Below are positions 13,226-22,028 of a DNA stretch of 44,616 nucleotides, in pieces (the first letter of the stretch is position 1; the number at the start of each line of letters is the position of its first letter). The stretch lies in the NCBI GenBank assembly GCA_944393385.1, contig CALYAA010000017.1:1-44616 (forward strand), read 5' to 3'. A program made the position numbers and the translations under genes. The notes under the pieces were generated by a model. It worked only from the letters and a program-made list of their open reading frames with translations. It had not been told where the DNA came from and made no database searches. This DNA comes from an uncultured Clostridia bacterium (lineage in GTDB: Bacteria; Bacillota; Clostridia; TANB77; CAG-508).

Positions 13226-16200
13226 ATGAATACACAACAGAAAAAAATTATTTTAATAATGTTAATCTTTTTTATTTCATTATTATTTTTAAATCCAATA
13301 TCATATGCAAATTATGATGAAAGTTTTCTCCAGCCAGTCGAATATTCTGATGAATTTAAAGAATGGCTAAAACTTTCTGATGAAGAAAAATCAAAAGTAG
13401 TCATGCCTAGAATGTATGATGTAAAATACAGTAAAAAGAATTCTAGGAATCTTTTAAATTTAGTTAGAACTGCTAGAGCAAGTTTAGATTCTAGGTTTAG
13501 TTTAAAAGATTTAATTCCAGAGAACTTAGTTATAAGAAATCAACAACAAACAAATTTATGCTGGGCTATTGCTACATTATCTTCTTTAGAAACTAATCTT
13601 GCTTTATCTAATTATAAACAAGGAATAAATTTATCAAAAGTATATGATTTTTCTGAAAGACATATGGAATATGCTACAACCAGAGAATTTGCTGATGGAG
13701 CAATAAACGAAAAAGGATATAACAGAAAACTTGGAAGTGGTGGTGCTTATCAATTTTCATTTTCATATTTAACAAATGGCACTGGTGCAATTCCAGAATC
13801 AGAAATGCCTTTTGAAAATAATGAAGATACTATAGACATTAGCGAAATTCAAGGTAAAACTGTTTCTAGTGAAGTATCTGATATGGTACTTTTTGCAGAT
13901 TACAATGCAGTAACAGGTACAGAAAGAACTGAAATTATGAATCAAATAAAAGAGCATATTCAAAATTATGGTTCTGTACAAGCCTCAATACATGGAAATT
14001 CTTCAAATATTACTGGTTTTAATTGTTATAATAATGATACTGGTGCAAAATATTGTAGTGGAGCTATAAATCACCCTATGGATCATGGTGTCTCAATAAT
14101 TGGTTGGGATGATAATTATAGTATTGATAATTTCCCAGAAGATTCTAAACCAACATCAAATGGTGCATGGATTGTAAGAAACTCTTGGGGAGAATCTTAT
14201 GGAGATGAAGGATATATATATATATCTTATGAAGATTATAATGTATCAAAACAATTATATGGAATTGAGAAAGCATCTGATACTGTTAATTATGACTATA
14301 TATATCAATATGATGAATATTTTCCACCAATAGAGGTTACTGTACCTTCTTCTAGTATGATGTTAGGAACTATCTTTAATAAACAATCATCAAGTACAGA
14401 ATATTTAACACAAGTATCTATTTACTTACCTGGAACAAATACATGTAAAGTATATGTAAATCCTAATGGAACCGGAATGTCTGAAAATGATTTACAACCA
14501 GTCACTTTAAAAGCTGGAAATTCAGAAACTATAAGCTCTGGTTATCATACATTAGAATTTGCTACTCCTATAGAATTAACATCAGATTCATTTGTGGTAG
14601 TAGTGGAAATTCAAAGTTCTTCAAATAATTATGTTATATTACCATTAGAATGCCCAATTGATGTAATGGACTACTGGGATTATGTAACAGTAGAAGAAGG
14701 AAAATGTTTTTATGCTACAGGAAATAACTTGTCAAATTGTAAATGGGCAGATTTAGGCAAACTTGTAGACTCTGGTAAATCTACATATAATGGAGATAGC
14801 ACAATAAAAGCATTTACAACAACTAATTCGAACGATGGTTCTATTAAAAATATTGAAATTACAACTCCTCCTACTAAAACTACTTATTTTGAAGGAGAAG
14901 ATTTTGATAAAACCGGTATGGTTGTTACAGCAAATTATAATAGTGAAGAAACCCCTTCTGTAGTACTAGATGATTCTAGCTACAGTATCACAAATGGTAC
15001 AAATTTACAAGCTGGTCAAACAAGTGTTACTATTTCTTATGAGGGAAAAACTGTAGAACAACCAATTACTGTTGAAGAAAACAGTATAGTTAATTTAGAA
15101 ATTACAACACCTCCTACTAAAACAGAATATAAAGAAGGAGAAAATTTTGATAAAACTGGCATGGTTGTTGAAGCAACTTATAAAAATGGTTCAACAAAAA
15201 ACATTACAGATTATACAATAGATGATGGAGATAATTTAAATGTTGATCAAACATATGTAACAATATCTTATAATGGGCAAACTGTACAGCAAACTATAAC
15301 AGTTATACCTAATCCATTAATAGAAATAGCAATTACTAACCCTCCATCAAAGACAGAATATATTGTTGGACAAAATTTTGATAAAACTGGTATGATTGTT
15401 GCTGGAATTTATCAAGACGGATCTACTAAACAAATATTAGATTATACAATTGAAAATGGAACAAATTTATCTGAGGGACAAACTTCTGTTACAATTACAT
15501 ACAATGGAATGTCAACAACTCAAACTATAACAGTTGAAGAAAAAACAGTTGTTGGAATTTCAATAATTAAATTACCTTCAAAAACTCAATATATACAAAA
15601 TGAAGAAAATTTAGATTTAACAGGCGGATTACTAAAAGTAACTTATAATGACAATTCAACAGAAGAATTAGATCTAAACTCCGAATTAATTGAAGTAAAC
15701 GGGTTTGATAATACAAAAGTAGGTACAAATACAATAGAAATAACATATATGGAATTAACAATTACATTAGATGTAGTAATTATTGAAAATCCTGATGATG
15801 AAAATCCTGATGATGAAAATCCTGATGATGAAAATCCTGACGATACAAATCCTGATGATGAAAATCCTGATGATACAAATCCTGATGATGAAAATCCTGA
15901 TGACGAAAATCCTGATGATGAAAATCCTCAAGATGGAAATGCAGAAAGTTCAAATTTCGATAATGTAGACTATCTTATAAATAAAGTTCAACTTCACACA
16001 TTTACAGATAAAAATACTCAAGAATATTTATTAGTTGATTTAACTATAAATGGTATTTCTAGAAATACAGAAAATGATAGTTACAAATATTACTATTATT
16101 TATCTCCAAATCAAGATGAAAATAGCATACAAGATTGGATAGAGATAAAAGAAGAACAAACATCAAATGATAGTATTCACTTTAAAGTTAACTCAAAAGA

Positions 16201-16555
16201 TATAAAAAATTATTTAGAACTATTATCTTCAGATACTTTATATTTATATATAAGAGAAGTTGTAACAAAAGGAGGAAGTCAATCTGTAGCAATATCAAAA
16301 CCTATGAAAGTTGAATTAAATGCAGATATTGAAATAGAAATATATAGAGATAATGCAAAAATAGAAAATAATAATTCTAATAATAATTCTAATAATAACA
16401 ATAATAATCAGACAGGAAATGATAATACAGTAGCACAAGAAGAAATTCCAAAAACAGGTATAAGAAATATATTAATAATTGGAGTTGCAATAATATTATT
16501 AGGTACATTAGTATTCTTTATTAGATATAAAATATTGAATAGTTATGTTAAGTAA
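13226..16555 (+). CDS. Sortase-anchored papain-like (C1) cysteine protease with Ig-like repeats
   Basis: A 1109-residue surface protein. A signal peptide (1-28) is followed by a papain-fold domain (about 95-350) with catalytic C112 in QQQTNLCWAIA, H287 in MDHGVSIIGW and N319 in IVRNSWGESYGDEGY. A lectin-like beta domain follows (about 360-530), then four Ig-like (bIg_3-type) repeats each containing FDKTGM or a variant, then an Asp/Pro-rich stalk of nine NPDD(E/T) pentapeptides (15788-15922). After another beta domain and an Asn-rich linker comes an IPKTG sorting signal, a hydrophobic segment and a basic tail. It would be covalently attached to the wall, probably by the sortase encoded at 20344-20925. 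The substrate is unknown. It is a single-gene unit, convergent with the cohesin-dockerin genes. Confidence 0.93.
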   Translation: MNTQQKKIILIMLIFFISLLFLNPISYANYDESFLQPVEYSDEFKEWLKLSDEEKSKVVMPRMYDVKYSKKNSRNLLNLVRTARASLDSRFSLKDLIPENLVIRNQQQTNLCWAIATLSSLETNLALSNYKQGINLSKVYDFSERHMEYATTREFADGAINEKGYNRKLGSGGAYQFSFSYLTNGTGAIPESEMPFENNEDTIDISEIQGKTVSSEVSDMVLFADYNAVTGTERTEIMNQIKEHIQNYGSVQASIHGNSSNITGFNCYNNDTGAKYCSGAINHPMDHGVSIIGWDDNYSIDNFPEDSKPTSNGAWIVRNSWGESYGDEGYIYISYEDYNVSKQLYGIEKASDTVNYDYIYQYDEYFPPIEVTVPSSSMMLGTIFNKQSSSTEYLTQVSIYLPGTNTCKVYVNPNGTGMSENDLQPVTLKAGNSETISSGYHTLEFATPIELTSDSFVVVVEIQSSSNNYVILPLECPIDVMDYWDYVTVEEGKCFYATGNNLSNCKWADLGKLVDSGKSTYNGDSTIKAFTTTNSNDGSIKNIEITTPPTKTTYFEGEDFDKTGMVVTANYNSEETPSVVLDDSSYSITNGTNLQAGQTSVTISYEGKTVEQPITVEENSIVNLEITTPPTKTEYKEGENFDKTGMVVEATYKNGSTKNITDYTIDDGDNLNVDQTYVTISYNGQTVQQTITVIPNPLIEIAITNPPSKTEYIVGQNFDKTGMIVAGIYQDGSTKQILDYTIENGTNLSEGQTSVTITYNGMSTTQTITVEEKTVVGISIIKLPSKTQYIQNEENLDLTGGLLKVTYNDNSTEELDLNSELIEVNGFDNTKVGTNTIEITYMELTITLDVVIIENPDDENPDDENPDDENPDDTNPDDENPDDTNPDDENPDDENPDDENPQDGNAESSNFDNVDYLINKVQLHTFTDKNTQEYLLVDLTINGISRNTENDSYKYYYYLSPNQDENSIQDWIEIKEEQTSNDSIHFKVNSKDIKNYLELLSSDTLYLYIREVVTKGGSQSVAISKPMKVELNADIEIEIYRDNAKIENNNSNNNSNNNNNNQTGNDNTVAQEEIPKTGIRNILIIGVAIILLGTLVFFIRYKILNSYVK
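15788..15922 (+). repeat. Nine tandem 15-bp units encoding NPDD(E/T)
   Basis: The unit AATCCTGATGATGAA is repeated nine times in frame with a few synonymous changes and two E-to-T variants, plus a tenth degenerate unit (NPQDG). It forms an acidic spacer in the surface protease. The high nucleotide identity between units suggests recent expansion and possible length variation between strains. Confidence 0.95.
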
Positions 16556-16561
16556 TGCAAA

Positions 16562-16599
16562 TAAAAGATTTTACATTTAGTAAAATCTTTTATTTTTTT
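16562..16599. terminator. Bidirectional terminator between convergent genes
   Basis: A perfect 13-bp stem (16562-16574 with 16580-16592) and a 5-nt loop. A T-run follows on the plus strand for the protease gene. On the minus strand the stem overlaps the end of the cohesin gene and its stop codon at 16590. Confidence 0.88.
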
Positions 16600-17840
16600 C
16601 TTGTTATAATAATTACAAATAAAATAATTATTATAACAATTGTTACTATTAATATTATATGTCTAAAATTTACATTACTCTCATTATTTTCTCTAATTTT
16701 TTCTTCCTCAATATTTTCATTTTCTACTCCTTGTTCAATATTCGCCTCTTCTAATAAATCATTCAATATTTCTGATTGTTTTTCTTCTTGATCTATATAT
16801 TGTTTTTGCTCTTCATCATTCCTTTTATGTGCAATAATTTTATAATTAATAGAACTAATTCCATCTTCTGATAATACATTTATTAAAATTTCATTATCTC
16901 CTGTTTTTAGCATTTCATTACCTTGTATTGTAACTTTAGCTTTTGGATTTTCCGGAATCGCTAATATGTTTAATTTATCTACATTTGGTTCAATTTCTAA
17001 TTTATACTCTGTTATAGTAGAATCAAAACTCGGATACAAAATTGTATTTTCTACAGCCAGATTTTCTAAATTAGTATTTGCTTTTTCTAAATCTTTAGTT
17101 TTTGTAATATATATTTTATATGAATTAGTTATTTCTTCATTAGGCGACGTTACTTTAATTTCTACAATATTTTTTCCTTGAATAAAGTTTTCATTTCCTA
17201 TAATTTCTACTTTAGAATCAGGATTATCTGGAATTGCAGTAATATCTAATTTATGAATTTCTTTATTTGTCGTTAAATAATATTCTTTAATATTTGTATC
17301 AAATTTAGGAATTATTTCTTCTTGATTTGTTCTTAAAATTTTTAATAATGCATTATTTATATCTGTACTAGTTCCTATTTCTTCTTGGGCTATAATTTTT
17401 TCTTGAGTGTTTTCTATTTTTTCTCCTATTTGTAGGTCTTTAAATTCAGCTTCTACTAAATTTCCTATTTCATCATAACAACTACCTTTTATAGATATAA
17501 TACTTTTTCCTTTTTGTTTTTGTTTAAAAATAAACTCTCCTAAGCAAAAATTAGTTTTTCCACTTGCATTTTCATCATACCATGACAATTTTATTTTTCC
17601 ATTTACAATGTTAGAATTACTTGGACCAGAAACGTATTCAATTTGATTAGGATTAAAATAAATCTCTAAATCCATTGCAGAAACATTATTCCCACTTATT
17701 TTTACAGTAACAGAATATTCTTCATCTATATTTATTTTTGTAGAATTAGTTTTTAATTCCACAATTGTATTAGCATTACCTTTAGTAGGATAAATTAATA
17801 TTATTAGAAATATAAATACCAATATAATTATTTTTTTCAT
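16590..17840 (-). CDS. Membrane-anchored cohesin-domain protein with cadherin-like domains
   Basis: With the start at 17840 the protein has 416 residues and begins with a good signal peptide (MKKIIILVFIFLIILIY...). The frame is open back to an ATG at 17951, abutting the upstream stop, but that start lacks a ribosome site and would bury the signal. Residues ~25-140 read as a cohesin fold (NTIVELKTNSTKINIDEEY, SAMDLEIYFNPNQIEYV, GEFIFKQKQKGKSIISI). Two cadherin-like beta-sandwich domains follow (about 160-248 and 252-340; both with IP(D/E)NP(D/K)(S/A)KV). The end is an acidic linker, a C-terminal transmembrane helix (~393-413) and RKK, without LPXTG. It lies directly downstream of the dockerin enzyme in the same operon, so it may dock it. 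Cohesin assignment is by pattern. Confidence 0.8.
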   Translation of the reverse strand: MKKIIILVFIFLIILIYPTKGNANTIVELKTNSTKINIDEEYSVTVKISGNNVSAMDLEIYFNPNQIEYVSGPSNSNIVNGKIKLSWYDENASGKTNFCLGEFIFKQKQKGKSIISIKGSCYDEIGNLVEAEFKDLQIGEKIENTQEKIIAQEEIGTSTDINNALLKILRTNQEEIIPKFDTNIKEYYLTTNKEIHKLDITAIPDNPDSKVEIIGNENFIQGKNIVEIKVTSPNEEITNSYKIYITKTKDLEKANTNLENLAVENTILYPSFDSTITEYKLEIEPNVDKLNILAIPENPKAKVTIQGNEMLKTGDNEILINVLSEDGISSINYKIIAHKRNDEEQKQYIDQEEKQSEILNDLLEEANIEQGVENENIEEEKIRENNESNVNFRHIILIVTIVIIIILFVIIITRKK

Positions 17841-17951
17841 GTGAGGCCCTATTCCTTTCATATCCAAAAACATATATAAATTCACTCTAATATTTTTTAT
17901 GGAATGTAAATCTATTTTCTTTTTTAATATATCAGTTTTAGCATTTTTCAT

Positions 17952-20189
17952 CTATTTTTGTTCTATTATTTTTAAATTTAATATATGTCTTTGTATTAAT
18001 AATAGATCTACTGAACTTGGATTTTTATCATTTTTATTAATATTTCCTGCTTTTAAAAATAAACCATCAAATTTTTCTATTTCTAATATATGTCTTTGTA
18101 ACACCAATAAATCAACACTATTTATTTTTCCATCACCATTTACATCTCCATATAATATAATTTGATATTCTCTTAAAAGATTATTATCTTTATAAATTTT
18201 AATTTTACAACCTGTTCCAACTAGGTCTGTTTCATTTAATTCTTCTTCTTTAAAATTATATATTTTTATATCATAATTTGTTTTTATAAGTTGTTTTATA
18301 TTATTTACAGTATTATTTTTATAATCTATTCCATAAATTTCATTTGCTTTAATAACTAAAGTTTCATCAAAAATCAACTCATTTTCATTTAATTTTTCTA
18401 TAACTTGTAAATTTACTGATTTTTCAATTTTGGAATCTAAAGATTTTACAATAATTTCAGTTTTTCCTATTTCTTTTGCTATAATATTTCCTTGATTATC
18501 TATTGATGCAATATTAGTATTTTGTGAAATAAACTCAATTTCTTTGTTTGTAGCATCTTCAGGATATATTATTACATTTAAATTAAATCTATCTCCTATT
18601 TCTAAAATTATATCATTAGTATCTATTCCTATATCTGTAACTGGGCTATATACATTTATATCTATACTAGCAGAAACATTATTACTAGCTTTAGCTGTAA
18701 TAGTACATTTTCCTGAACTTAATCCTAAAATATAACCATCATTATCAATCATTGCTATAGAATTATCACTAGATATAAATTCTATGTTAGTATTTCCCGC
18801 TTCTGTAGGTAATATTTCTACCCCTAATTTTATTTTCTCATTTTTATTAATAGTTGTTTTTTCAAGAGATAATTTTATTTCAGAAACTTGTATTTCAGGA
18901 ACTGGTTCTAAATAACTCTGAAATACATATCCAACAATTCCATTTTCTAAAATAACTCTATCCCATAATTCTCCTGATTGTTTACCTCTTGCTATTCTTG
19001 TTACTTGCTCTTTACTATCTAAAGTTGTAATAATTTCATAAGAACTTCCTGGTCCTGATCTAACATTTAATTTTGTTGAAACATTAGCAAACATTTTAGT
19101 ATTATCACTAACAAAATCATTATCTAATATATTAGGACTTTCTATAGGTAACTCTGGCATATTATCATAAACTGGAATAATAAATGTTAATCCAGATTCA
19201 AAAATTCCACTATCTTTATAACCATTATAAACTAATTTAGATTCACTATATGGTGCTAATACATTTGTCATATATTGATGCCAAAATAATTCTCCACCCT
19301 TTTCATCATTAACATCAAATTTTTGTAAGTATATCGTATTTTGTCCAATATTTATATAGCTTGAACCAATAAAAATAGCTCCACCAGTTATTGCTTTTTC
19401 TTTTGTATTCCATGGAATTAAATATTTGTTTTTTATTTCTTGACTAGCACCTTTTCCGTCTTTTGCATATTGAAGACCATTTTTTATTGCACCCATAGGC
19501 TCTGAGGAACTAGTAGCTCCTATATTATAAAAATTATATAATCCTTCAAATCCACTTACAGTTCCACTAATTGATGAATGTGATAAAAAAGGACCTACTT
19601 CTTGTTTAATTCTTGAAGCTAAATGATATGTGCTGACTTTAGATGTTATTCCACCTTTAAGTATTAAATCTGAGTATTTATCACTTGTTACTATATTATT
19701 TCCAGATGAATTTTTATATTCTACTATTTTATTATAAAATTCTGTTCCATATAATATTTTTTCTATACCGTCTAAATTATTAGTTTTCTCATCATATGAT
19801 AATATTTCAAATTGAAAAATTCTAACTTCATTTAAAAAATTTCTAGGATCCATTGTATATTCTACTGCTTTTCTTGAAGAATCAACCCATCCTTTATCAA
19901 CTTCTACATTATATTCTCCATTTTTTGTATTTTTCCAATTATCATGATAAGATATTGGAACAAGATTTTTTCCAAAAATATTTTCATTATCAATTACATA
20001 GTTCCAGTCTAAATCTGTATACAAAGCTATAAAATTCCAATTAGGGTGTTTTTGTTTTAATACTTTTAGATATGGTTGATAATTTACTGGGAAAGCATCT
20101 ATTCCTTCTAATTTAGTTGAACAAAAAGAATATGATGGAAAAAAAGCAAAAAATAATAGTATGATAAAAAAGAATATTTTATATTTCAT
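17952..20189 (-). CDS. Dockerin-bearing N-acetylglucosaminidase (peptidoglycan hydrolase)
   Basis: A 745-residue secreted protein. A signal peptide (1-24) is followed by a LytD-type glucosaminidase region (about 28-330) beginning IDAFPVNYQPYLKVLKQKHPNW, with the probable catalytic E196 in RIKQEVGPF and YNFYNIGA further on. Then come an SH3b wall-binding domain (~366-430, LNVRSGPGSSY), two Ig-like Big_2 domains (~435-600) and a C-terminal type I dockerin (~680-741). Dockerin repeat one is canonical (GDVNGDGKINSVDLLVLQRHIL). Repeat two is degenerate in its calcium loop (NINKNDKNPSSVDLLLIQRHIL) but keeps the docking helix. Two neighbouring genes encode cohesin proteins, which suggests that this wall hydrolase is held at the surface by cohesin-dockerin binding. 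The partnership is inferred. Confidence 0.88.
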   Translation of the reverse strand: MKYKIFFFIILLFFAFFPSYSFCSTKLEGIDAFPVNYQPYLKVLKQKHPNWNFIALYTDLDWNYVIDNENIFGKNLVPISYHDNWKNTKNGEYNVEVDKGWVDSSRKAVEYTMDPRNFLNEVRIFQFEILSYDEKTNNLDGIEKILYGTEFYNKIVEYKNSSGNNIVTSDKYSDLILKGGITSKVSTYHLASRIKQEVGPFLSHSSISGTVSGFEGLYNFYNIGATSSSEPMGAIKNGLQYAKDGKGASQEIKNKYLIPWNTKEKAITGGAIFIGSSYINIGQNTIYLQKFDVNDEKGGELFWHQYMTNVLAPYSESKLVYNGYKDSGIFESGLTFIIPVYDNMPELPIESPNILDNDFVSDNTKMFANVSTKLNVRSGPGSSYEIITTLDSKEQVTRIARGKQSGELWDRVILENGIVGYVFQSYLEPVPEIQVSEIKLSLEKTTINKNEKIKLGVEILPTEAGNTNIEFISSDNSIAMIDNDGYILGLSSGKCTITAKASNNVSASIDINVYSPVTDIGIDTNDIILEIGDRFNLNVIIYPEDATNKEIEFISQNTNIASIDNQGNIIAKEIGKTEIIVKSLDSKIEKSVNLQVIEKLNENELIFDETLVIKANEIYGIDYKNNTVNNIKQLIKTNYDIKIYNFKEEELNETDLVGTGCKIKIYKDNNLLREYQIILYGDVNGDGKINSVDLLVLQRHILEIEKFDGLFLKAGNINKNDKNPSSVDLLLIQRHILNLKIIEQK

Positions 20190-20343
20190 AATAAATTTCT
20201 TTCCTTTCTTGCTGTATTTAAGTCATATTTATTATGTATTAAAATTTTATTTTTAATAAAAATTTTACATAATAATTTATATAATCTCTTAATATCAAAT
20301 CTTTTAAAGTATTTTTTATTATTATGATTAAAATATTCACTTA

Positions 20344-20925
20344 TCATACTATTTCTTTCGCCTTGACTATAATTCTTTTTTTACTATTTGGAGTACAAGT
20401 TATTAATGTTACTTCTTTTCTACCATTTGTTTTTTGTGATAAACATTCTGTTTGATTTGGTAGCACTTTATATATATCATATATTTCATATTGAATTAAT
20501 CCATTATAATTATCTGTTAAAGTAAAAATATCACCAATATTCAATTTTGTAATATTTTTAAAATCTTTATAATTATGACCAGCTATGCAATAATTTCCAA
20601 TCTCATTAGGATTGCTTCCCCAAAATTTTGTAACAGAAACTTTTAATGCATCTATGCTATAATCTTTTATAACATAAGATTTTAAATTTATTTTTGGAAT
20701 ATCCAGTTTAGCAGAAACATTGTAACCTTTATATTTTTCCTGAATTAAATTTAAATTTTTTTTAACATTTATCTTGCAAATAATTTCTTCGTCATTAGAA
20801 TTTTCGTCAATTGAAATATCTTTTTTTTGAATAATTATTTCTGTCTTTTTTTTAGGTATATAGCTATAATAATATAAAATTCCAAAACTAATAATTATTA
20901 TAAATATAATAATTATATTTTTCAT
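20344..20925 (-). CDS. Sortase (class D/E-like transpeptidase)
   Basis: A 193-residue membrane-anchored transpeptidase: one N-terminal hydrophobic helix (3-20), then the sortase beta barrel with catalytic H117 in IAGHNY, C177 in TLITCTPN and R184 in SKKRIIVKA. It would cleave LPXTG-type signals between Thr and Gly and join the protein to the wall precursor. Likely substrates in this window are the IPKTG protease (13226) and the LPKTG cohesin protein (20955). It is small and lacks a C-terminal helix, which argues against class C (pilin) sortases; the exact class is not settled. The AAAGGA site is about 22 nt from the ATG, unusually far. It lies 29 nt downstream of the cohesin gene, on the same strand. 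Confidence 0.93.
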   Translation of the reverse strand: MKNIIIIFIIIISFGILYYYSYIPKKKTEIIIQKKDISIDENSNDEEIICKINVKKNLNLIQEKYKGYNVSAKLDIPKINLKSYVIKDYSIDALKVSVTKFWGSNPNEIGNYCIAGHNYKDFKNITKLNIGDIFTLTDNYNGLIQYEIYDIYKVLPNQTECLSQKTNGRKEVTLITCTPNSKKRIIVKAKEIV

Positions 20926-20954
20926 ATATATAATAATAAAGTTTTTTCCTTTAT

Positions 20955-22028
20955 TTATTTTTTCTTTTTAAATTGAGTAAAATAAATTAATACTGCTAAT
21001 ACAATTATTGCAACAATAATTCCTGTGTAATTTATACCTGTTTTTGGTAATTCTTGTGGTAGGTTTTCTTCTTTTTGTGAATTATTTATTGTGTTTTCTG
21101 TCGAATTATTTGGATTATTTTCTGTTGTTCCATTATTATTGTTGTTATTATTATTTTCATTATTGTTTTCATTATCTTCAATTGTTTCTTTTTCTTCTAC
21201 ATTTATATTAAAAGATTTTTCTACAATTGAGGCATCTGATGAATCTCTGTCAATTAATTTTAATGTTATTTGATATTCTCCCGCTTCTGTAAATAATCCT
21301 GTGAATTTAAGAACTTGATTTACTTTTCCTCCAATTTTATATCCTGATGGATCTCCCCATCCACTTTGTATTAAATCATGTTCAAGTTGTTGTTCATCTA
21401 TTCCTATTAATGTTACTGTTCCTCCTGTTTGTGTTGAAACCTCTGCAATTAATCTTGCATGGTCATAATATTTTCCCATTTCTGAACTTGTAGTAATAGT
21501 TATTTCTGTTTCTTTATTTTTTATAATTTCACCTTCATATTGCAAGTTTAGCTCATAATCTTTATAATCTGGTTCTACAGTAATGTTTTTAGTTATTGGA
21601 ACATCTATATCATCATATTGTTCAGATGCATCACCATTTGCCAATCCTTCTGCTGTTACAGATAAATCTGTAGGATTAGATGTAGTTATTCCATCTTTTG
21701 CTCTAAATACAACATCTAAGCTATCTTTTGTATTACTTCCTCCTGTTGAATCATAATAAACAATTCTAACTTTTGTTGACATATCATTTGGTGTTCCATC
21801 ACTAGCACTTACAAATTCTAATAAATTATTATCATATGCAATGTCAAATGTATATGCTCCTAAACTTTTTCCAAATTCTACTTTTAATGTTACTTCATCT
21901 CCTGGATTTACTATTGTTTTATTTGTTTCTATTTTTATACTATCTAAACTTGCTGCCTTTGCTTTTACAGAAAATAAACTTATACACATTATTGAAAATA
22001 TCGTTATTAAATAAAATATTTTTTTCAT
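20955..22028 (-). CDS. LPXTG-anchored cohesin-domain surface protein
   Basis: A 357-residue protein with a strong AAAGGAGG site. A signal peptide (1-25, ending VKAKA) precedes a cohesin-type domain (about 26-150) with the usual pattern VNPGDEVTLKVEF, LGAYTFDIAYDNNLLEFVSA and SLDVVFRAK. A second beta domain (~155-282, ending FNINVEEKE), a Glu/Asn-rich spacer and an LPKTG sorting signal with hydrophobic helix and KKKK tail follow. It is the presumed wall scaffold for the dockerin enzyme, with its sortase encoded immediately downstream. Whether this cohesin and that dockerin match cannot be read from the sequence. Confidence 0.87.
   Translation of the reverse strand: MKKIFYLITIFSIMCISLFSVKAKAASLDSIKIETNKTIVNPGDEVTLKVEFGKSLGAYTFDIAYDNNLLEFVSASDGTPNDMSTKVRIVYYDSTGGSNTKDSLDVVFRAKDGITTSNPTDLSVTAEGLANGDASEQYDDIDVPITKNITVEPDYKDYELNLQYEGEIIKNKETEITITTSSEMGKYYDHARLIAEVSTQTGGTVTLIGIDEQQLEHDLIQSGWGDPSGYKIGGKVNQVLKFTGLFTEAGEYQITLKLIDRDSSDASIVEKSFNINVEEKETIEDNENNNENNNNNNNNGTTENNPNNSTENTINNSQKEENLPQELPKTGINYTGIIVAIIVLAVLIYFTQFKKKK

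Follow-up and report, generated by a model that had tools for sequence, protein, structure and literature searches.

In Staphylococcus aureus, SpdC scaffolds the peptidoglycan hydrolase SagB at the membrane so that glycan strands are cut to proper length (PMC10581084, PMC12272431). A contig of an uncultured Clostridia bacterium (CALYAA010000017.1, 44,616 nucleotides, analysed whole and hereafter called the window) carries a four-gene cluster which resembles this release complex in that a hydrolase of the same family is paired with a dedicated membrane protein as holder. The means are different, however: while SpdC, a CAAX-protease homolog, is an integral membrane protein, the partner encoded here has another fold, being a cohesin/Cadherin-like protein with a single transmembrane (TM) helix, and it is the enzyme that bears a dockerin. 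Our analysis indicates that the locus probably makes a membrane-tethered peptidoglycan glucosaminidase whose dockerin is held by the cohesin of the TM protein, a wall-linked cohesin being an optional second anchor.

Cohesins and dockerins are the modules of cellulosomes, with which the locus shares the cohesin fold and a type I dockerin whose recognition residues are duplicated, and sortase-type anchoring of cellulosomes is known in ruminococci. This genome differs from that scheme by having no detected multi-cohesin scaffoldin or dockerin-borne plant-polymer enzyme, with one enzyme per partner. Lysozyme activity and dockerin-bearing wall hydrolases have been reported in Ruminococcus champanellensis, and a review floats the idea of a "lyticome" (PMC6403190); there too a peptidoglycan hydrolase carries a dockerin, but within a plant-fibre cellulosome, whereas the enzyme described here has a dedicated membrane partner. 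Pairwise use of cohesin and dockerin without scaffoldin occurs in Clostridium perfringens (discussed in PMC12997984), whose GH84C (NagJ) cohesin is the nearest solved cohesin fold (2jh2); that species joins host-glycan enzymes to one another, whereas here a wall hydrolase would be joined to a membrane anchor. The Limousia mucinolysome (PMC12997984) likewise comes from gut Clostridia, is non-cellulosic and has an LPxTG cohesin anchor, but is built on classical scaffoldins and mucin glycosidases. Lysozymes borne on dockerins and the notion of a lyticome are in print; what appears to be new is the dedicated membrane cohesin partner of a SagB-like hydrolase, its spread in Clostridia and a natural fusion of the two, none of which was found in a literature search on GH73-dockerin and cadherin-dockerin systems, most subscription papers being outside that search.

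All four genes were confirmed on the minus strand where the preliminary description of the window had placed them, and are transcribed in the order LPKTG protein (22028-20955), sortase (20925-20344), hydrolase (20189-17952) and single-TM protein (17840-16590). Their features are listed below.

17952..20189, minus strand: secreted SagB-like glucosaminidase, 745 aa, comprising SH3b, two Big_2 domains, an X-like module and, at the C-terminus, a dockerin of type I (Pfam, NCBIfam, profile)
19152..20096, minus strand: SagB/GH73-like catalytic domain with putative catalytic Glu197 in RIKQEVG (profile alignment to 6u0o SagB and 6fxp)
17979..18152, minus strand: dockerin; repeat 1, GDVNGDGKINSVDLLVLQRHIL, has a canonical Ca loop and repeat 2, NINKNDKNPSSVDLLLIQRHIL, a degenerate loop with one additional residue
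16590..17840, minus strand: membrane partner, 416 aa, with signal peptide, cohesin, two Cadherin-like domains and one C-terminal TM helix
17427..17768, minus strand: cohesin domain of the membrane partner (orthologs, profiles, Foldseek of model)
16746..17315, minus strand: two Cadherin-like (PF12733) domains, likely a spacer (Pfam)
16593..16670, minus strand: C-terminal TM helix of the membrane partner, then RKK (read from the translation)
20344..20925, minus strand: sortase, 193 aa, with a TLITC active-site motif (Sortase, PF04203)
20955..22028, minus strand: LPKTG cohesin protein, 357 aa, with signal peptide, cohesin, second beta domain and LPKTG-TM-KKKK
21621..21935, minus strand: cohesin domain of the LPKTG protein (PF00963, 28.3 bits; 31 bits in a second search)
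21036..21050, minus strand: LPKTG sorting motif (TIGR01167, 20.4 bits, cut-off 15.9)

The gene of the membrane partner has a further in-frame ATG upstream, at 17951, and scans for sigma-70 promoters and terminators gave signals no better than shuffled sequence.

The hydrolase had been described as a glucosaminidase with SH3b and Ig-like domains ending in a dockerin, which agrees with the Pfam matches to SH3_3, two Big_2 and Dockerin_1 (residues 680-737) and with a SagB-like N-terminal domain. This catalytic domain has no Pfam match; in NCBIfam it is closest to SagB, with a score under the equivalog-level cut-off, as expected of a distant relative. The family profile aligns to SagB of structure 6u0o, that of the SagB-SpdC complex, with an E-value of 1.9e-28, and the catalytic Glu falls on Glu197, which is invariant in the homolog alignment (A1). 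By homology and this putative catalytic Glu, the enzyme is assigned as a SagB-type glucosaminidase. Frameshifts interrupt several hydrolase orthologs (L021-L025, L028, L029), in three cases around residue 210-219; these may be assembly errors, pseudogenes or phase variation. The dockerin scores 39.5 bits against PF00404 (cut-off 22.9) and is of type I, with two F-hand repeats and duplicated recognition residues.

Whether the membrane partner carries a cohesin is less evident from its own sequence, since it scores 19-21 bits (20.8) against PF00963, under the cut-off of 24.1, while the LPKTG protein (28.3 bits) and the dockerin both exceed theirs. The domain of the membrane protein is nevertheless a cohesin, as the preliminary description had it, on account of ortholog scores, profile searches and structural matches of the model. 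PF00963 matches 50 of 73 orthologous TM-partner domains with E-values below 0.01 and down to 2.9e-12; every PDB match of the TM-cohesin profile is a cohesin-bearing protein; and hhalign relates TM-cohesins to LPKTG cohesins with a probability of 98.3%. Furthermore, the domain of the window's protein is modelled at a predicted local distance difference test (pLDDT) score of about 95, and Foldseek returns cohesins as its top 31 matches and as nearly all of the top 50, led by C. perfringens 2jh2 (E 9.2e-9, template-modelling score 0.77 by target). The two Cadherin-like PF12733 domains that follow it had been overlooked in the preliminary description.

The pairing of these two proteins is conserved. 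One scan of GTDB r220 gave 80 orthologous loci, almost all from metagenome-assembled genomes, many of which come from animal gut samples judging by their names and which include Candidatus Merdicola faecigallinarum. Hydrolase-dockerin, TM-cohesin and LPKTG-cohesin are all present in 72 of the 80; the LPKTG-cohesin is missing from the locus in seven, and at one the contig stops short of the TM gene. Homologous loci do not, then, routinely lack the membrane partner, which adjoins the dockerin hydrolase in 79 of the 79 loci with readable sequence, while for the LPKTG-cohesin such absence is in part the case. The sortase is absent as well from the six loci that lack the LPKTG-cohesin and have ample upstream sequence (L098, L104, L106, L107, L113, L115); three of them form one clade and two belong to another, and one has an LPKTG-cohesin ortholog on a different contig (G253).

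In five loci from five species (L096, L105, L110, L117, L120), forming one clade with a support of 1.0, the hydrolase, dockerin, linker, cohesin, Cadherin-like domains and TM helix constitute a single open frame in which the signal peptide of the cohesin is lost. Within this clade the dockerin is 93% identical and the catalytic domain 92%, as compared with 75% for the X-like module, 71% for the Cadherin-like domains, 66% for the cohesin and 19% for the linker. This natural fusion with a conserved dockerin indicates that the pair of genes functions as a unit, and that constraint on the dockerin persists after covalent joining. The LPKTG cohesin persists in the fusion clade, but its five members are the most diverged of the 72 (44% versus 55% mean identity) and are without the conserved YYDSTGG segment, while the divergence of the hydrolase, dockerin, sortase and TM-cohesin is not unusual. 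Such divergence is expected if the LPKTG cohesin formerly shared the dockerin, although it represents a single evolutionary event.

The dockerin motif S-V/I-D-L-L..Q-R-H-I-L is near-invariant in both repeats over the 80 loci, and helix residues are fixed while the second Ca loop (N-x-N-x-N-G, +1 residue) is degenerate in nearly all orthologs. At these loci, 77 hydrolase dockerins of the S-V-D..QRHIL class pair with a cohesin-Cadherin-TM partner, five of them by fusion. Among 60 dockerin loci sampled from the family, 28 pair a dockerin of a DY..IKN class with an Ig-Cadherin-TM partner. A third class (TDLL..KR), on proteins of about 1500 aa with NPCBM and F5_8 domains, pairs with short cohesin proteins mostly bearing an LPXTG-like end. 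The motif class of the dockerin is sorted with the type of partner; since the classes are paralogous lineages, the instances of this association are not independent.

In other genera of the family (L031-L037, L039-L045), the NPCBM and F5/8 C proteins of about 1500 aa with a terminal dockerin adjoin a cohesin protein of 240-310 aa, mostly with an LPXTG-like or TM end, and make up a second frequent cohesin-dockerin pair. The cluster at L174:2446-7438 combines a SagB-dockerin with an amidase-like dockerin protein, the recognition motifs of the two matching (ARDSLRIL), and contains Cadherin-TM partners, one of which has a cohesin-like N-terminus. At L038:2596-17108 (G171), six dockerin proteins in a row share the motif NARDAKLVLQYFNG, have Big_2 and LRR domains among them, and adjoin a sortase and an LPKTG Big_2 protein.

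The source genome (1.82 Mb, 57 contigs, 98.5% complete) contains exactly two dockerins, both on SagB-like hydrolases, and only two convincing cohesins, both in the window and on separate single-cohesin proteins. A third cohesin candidate (C9:19250) was rejected as it reads as a SpaA-like LPxTG pilin-type protein. These counts uphold the initial view of a non-cellulosomal set around a peptidoglycan hydrolase. The "murosome"-like arrangement then suggested, which implies a multi-enzyme assembly, fares less well: no multi-cohesin scaffoldin was detected in the genome, and the evidence points to a tether of one enzyme to one partner. The second dockerin hydrolase (C15, L001/L237) is adjoined by a TM protein with two Cadherin-like domains and an Ig-like, not cohesin, N-terminus, while a third SagB-like protein (C1, L236:2919-4010, 363 aa) has a hydrophobic N-terminal stretch and neither dockerin nor partner. 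One enzyme family thus occurs in three arrangements within one cell: dockerin with cohesin partner, dockerin with Ig-like partner, and neither. Short SagB-like paralogs of about 360 aa with a hydrophobic N-terminus and without dockerin recur in the genus (L137, L149, L236, L239, L243, L244) and adjoin the dockerin cassette in three of those six loci.

The domains, the constant gene order, the fusion and the match of dockerin motif to partner type are read directly from the sequences; from them we infer how the binding of dockerin to cohesin, its geometry, the position at the membrane and a role in glycan release or length control would fit together. The SagB-like enzyme would be secreted without a membrane anchor of its own, and its dockerin would bind the cohesin of the operon partner. 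This cohesin, borne on a spacer of Cadherin-like domains and a single TM helix, may hold the active site near the membrane, where the tethered hydrolase would cut nascent glycan strands in much the way that SpdC-held SagB does. At loci that have it, the sortase-linked cohesin would provide a second, wall-bound docking site.

Four observations weigh against such a tether. Docking was approached with two single-chain AlphaFold proxies, namely the natural dockerin-linker-cohesin fusion and a read-through of the window with the stop as Q, and neither, weak as such proxies are, docks confidently: the fusion (pLDDT 87.7, predicted template-modelling score, pTM, 0.52) has both domains well folded but is limited by its short linker, and the read-through (pTM 0.56) has a well-folded cohesin and a dockerin at pLDDT 50-68, and is limited by the signal peptide. 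In the paralog cassette that is most widespread, the N-terminal domain of the partner resembles a generic Ig domain rather than a cohesin; that is the call of Pfam and PDB searches, while hhalign gives 93.7% to TM-cohesins and 72.9% to LPKTG cohesins. Two loci (L177 and L179) violate the rule of motif and partner, and in the L201-L204 family the partner has a weak cohesin match and the hydrolase no detected dockerin.

The role of the LPKTG cohesin is the first point on which the locus may be read otherwise. Its LPKTG-TM-positive tail fits a sortase substrate (TIGR01167), and the sortase itself, recognized as such from the outset, is closest to class C/D with scores under the subclass cut-offs. 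The dockerin might mainly bind this wall-linked cohesin, which would place the hydrolase on the mature wall and leave the TM-cohesin protein with some other task. The presence of the LPKTG cohesin and sortase in the hydrolase's gene cluster at most loci, the better conservation of the LPKTG protein among orthologs (mean 55% identity versus 40% for the TM protein) and the loss of YYDSTGG in the fusion clade, as expected of a former binder, are in keeping with this. We consider it unlikely, since the LPKTG cohesin is absent beside the hydrolase in seven loci and the TM-cohesin never, since the family and class cassettes do not have it apart from L175, and since it is the TM protein that the fusion took. 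A second, wall-bound docking site for the dockerin remains a plausible role for the LPKTG cohesin. Two alternative anchors, as originally envisaged, are plausible as well, and both cohesin proteins are real; but with one partner constant and the other sometimes absent they are not equal alternatives, the sortase-linked one being accessory. Elsewhere in the window, a papain-like protease (13226-16555, plus strand) ends in an IPKTG anchor of its own, while its relatives (L034:1895-4650, L162:205-4601) end in a dockerin beside a cohesin protein, and the type of anchor hence looks interchangeable.

A somewhat less likely reading still is that dockerin and cohesin are structural leftovers which do not bind each other, their adjacency reflecting a shared surface function only. 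The degenerate second Ca loop, the AlphaFold proxies and the fast-diverging TM protein would agree with it, but not the near-invariant S-V-D-L-L..Q-R-H-I-L of both repeats, the conservation of the dockerin even after fusion, or the way in which motif class follows partner type. It is very improbable that the hydrolase belongs to a lytic or predatory lyticome aimed at the walls of competitors and not the cell's own: dockerin-borne lysozymes of the R. champanellensis cellulosome and the published idea (PMC6403190) lend it some precedent, as does the amidase with a matching dockerin at L174, but the membrane tether with one enzyme per partner and no multi-cohesin scaffoldin detected in the genome, the SagB-type catalytic domain and the prevalence of dockerins in the family all speak against it.

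Of 243 genomes of the family, 228 have dockerins and 203 cohesins; dockerins are also found in 132 of 146 genomes of the order and in 94 of 196 sampled genomes of the class Clostridia. The cassette of hydrolase-dockerin and Cadherin-TM protein is found repeatedly within the family and also in other families of Clostridia (L216, L217, L219, L220, L222, L223), with a recognisable cohesin in several. In two lineages (L233, L234), a dockerin-less hydrolase adjoins a Cadherin-TM partner that lacks the N-terminal domain, while the L230 family does not fit, so that a joint loss of dockerin and cohesin is only suggestive. Together with the 363-aa paralog that has neither dockerin nor partner, these two lineages make covalent and non-covalent tethers look interchangeable. 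Cohesin matches also lie within open frames of 4000-4700 aa encoding giant surface proteins (G166:C4:106833, G207:C6:48291, G070:C9:18469, G082:C28:817, G155:C86:159).

A broader possibility, which we regard as doubtful, is that cohesin-dockerin is a long-standing housekeeping tether for wall synthesis in Clostridia, doing the job of SagB-SpdC, that wall-linked cohesins let the hydrolase move between membrane and wall, and that cellulosomes are a specialised branch of an older wall role. Work on cohesin-dockerin pairs has dealt almost wholly with the assembly of enzymes for food polymers; a conserved cassette in which they couple a SagB-like hydrolase with a membrane protein would, if true, extend their use to the cell's own wall. 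The cassette supplies small pairs, fused by nature, that lend themselves readily to in vitro tests, and the tether would help to explain why about half of the sampled Clostridia genomes have dockerins though few make cellulosomes.

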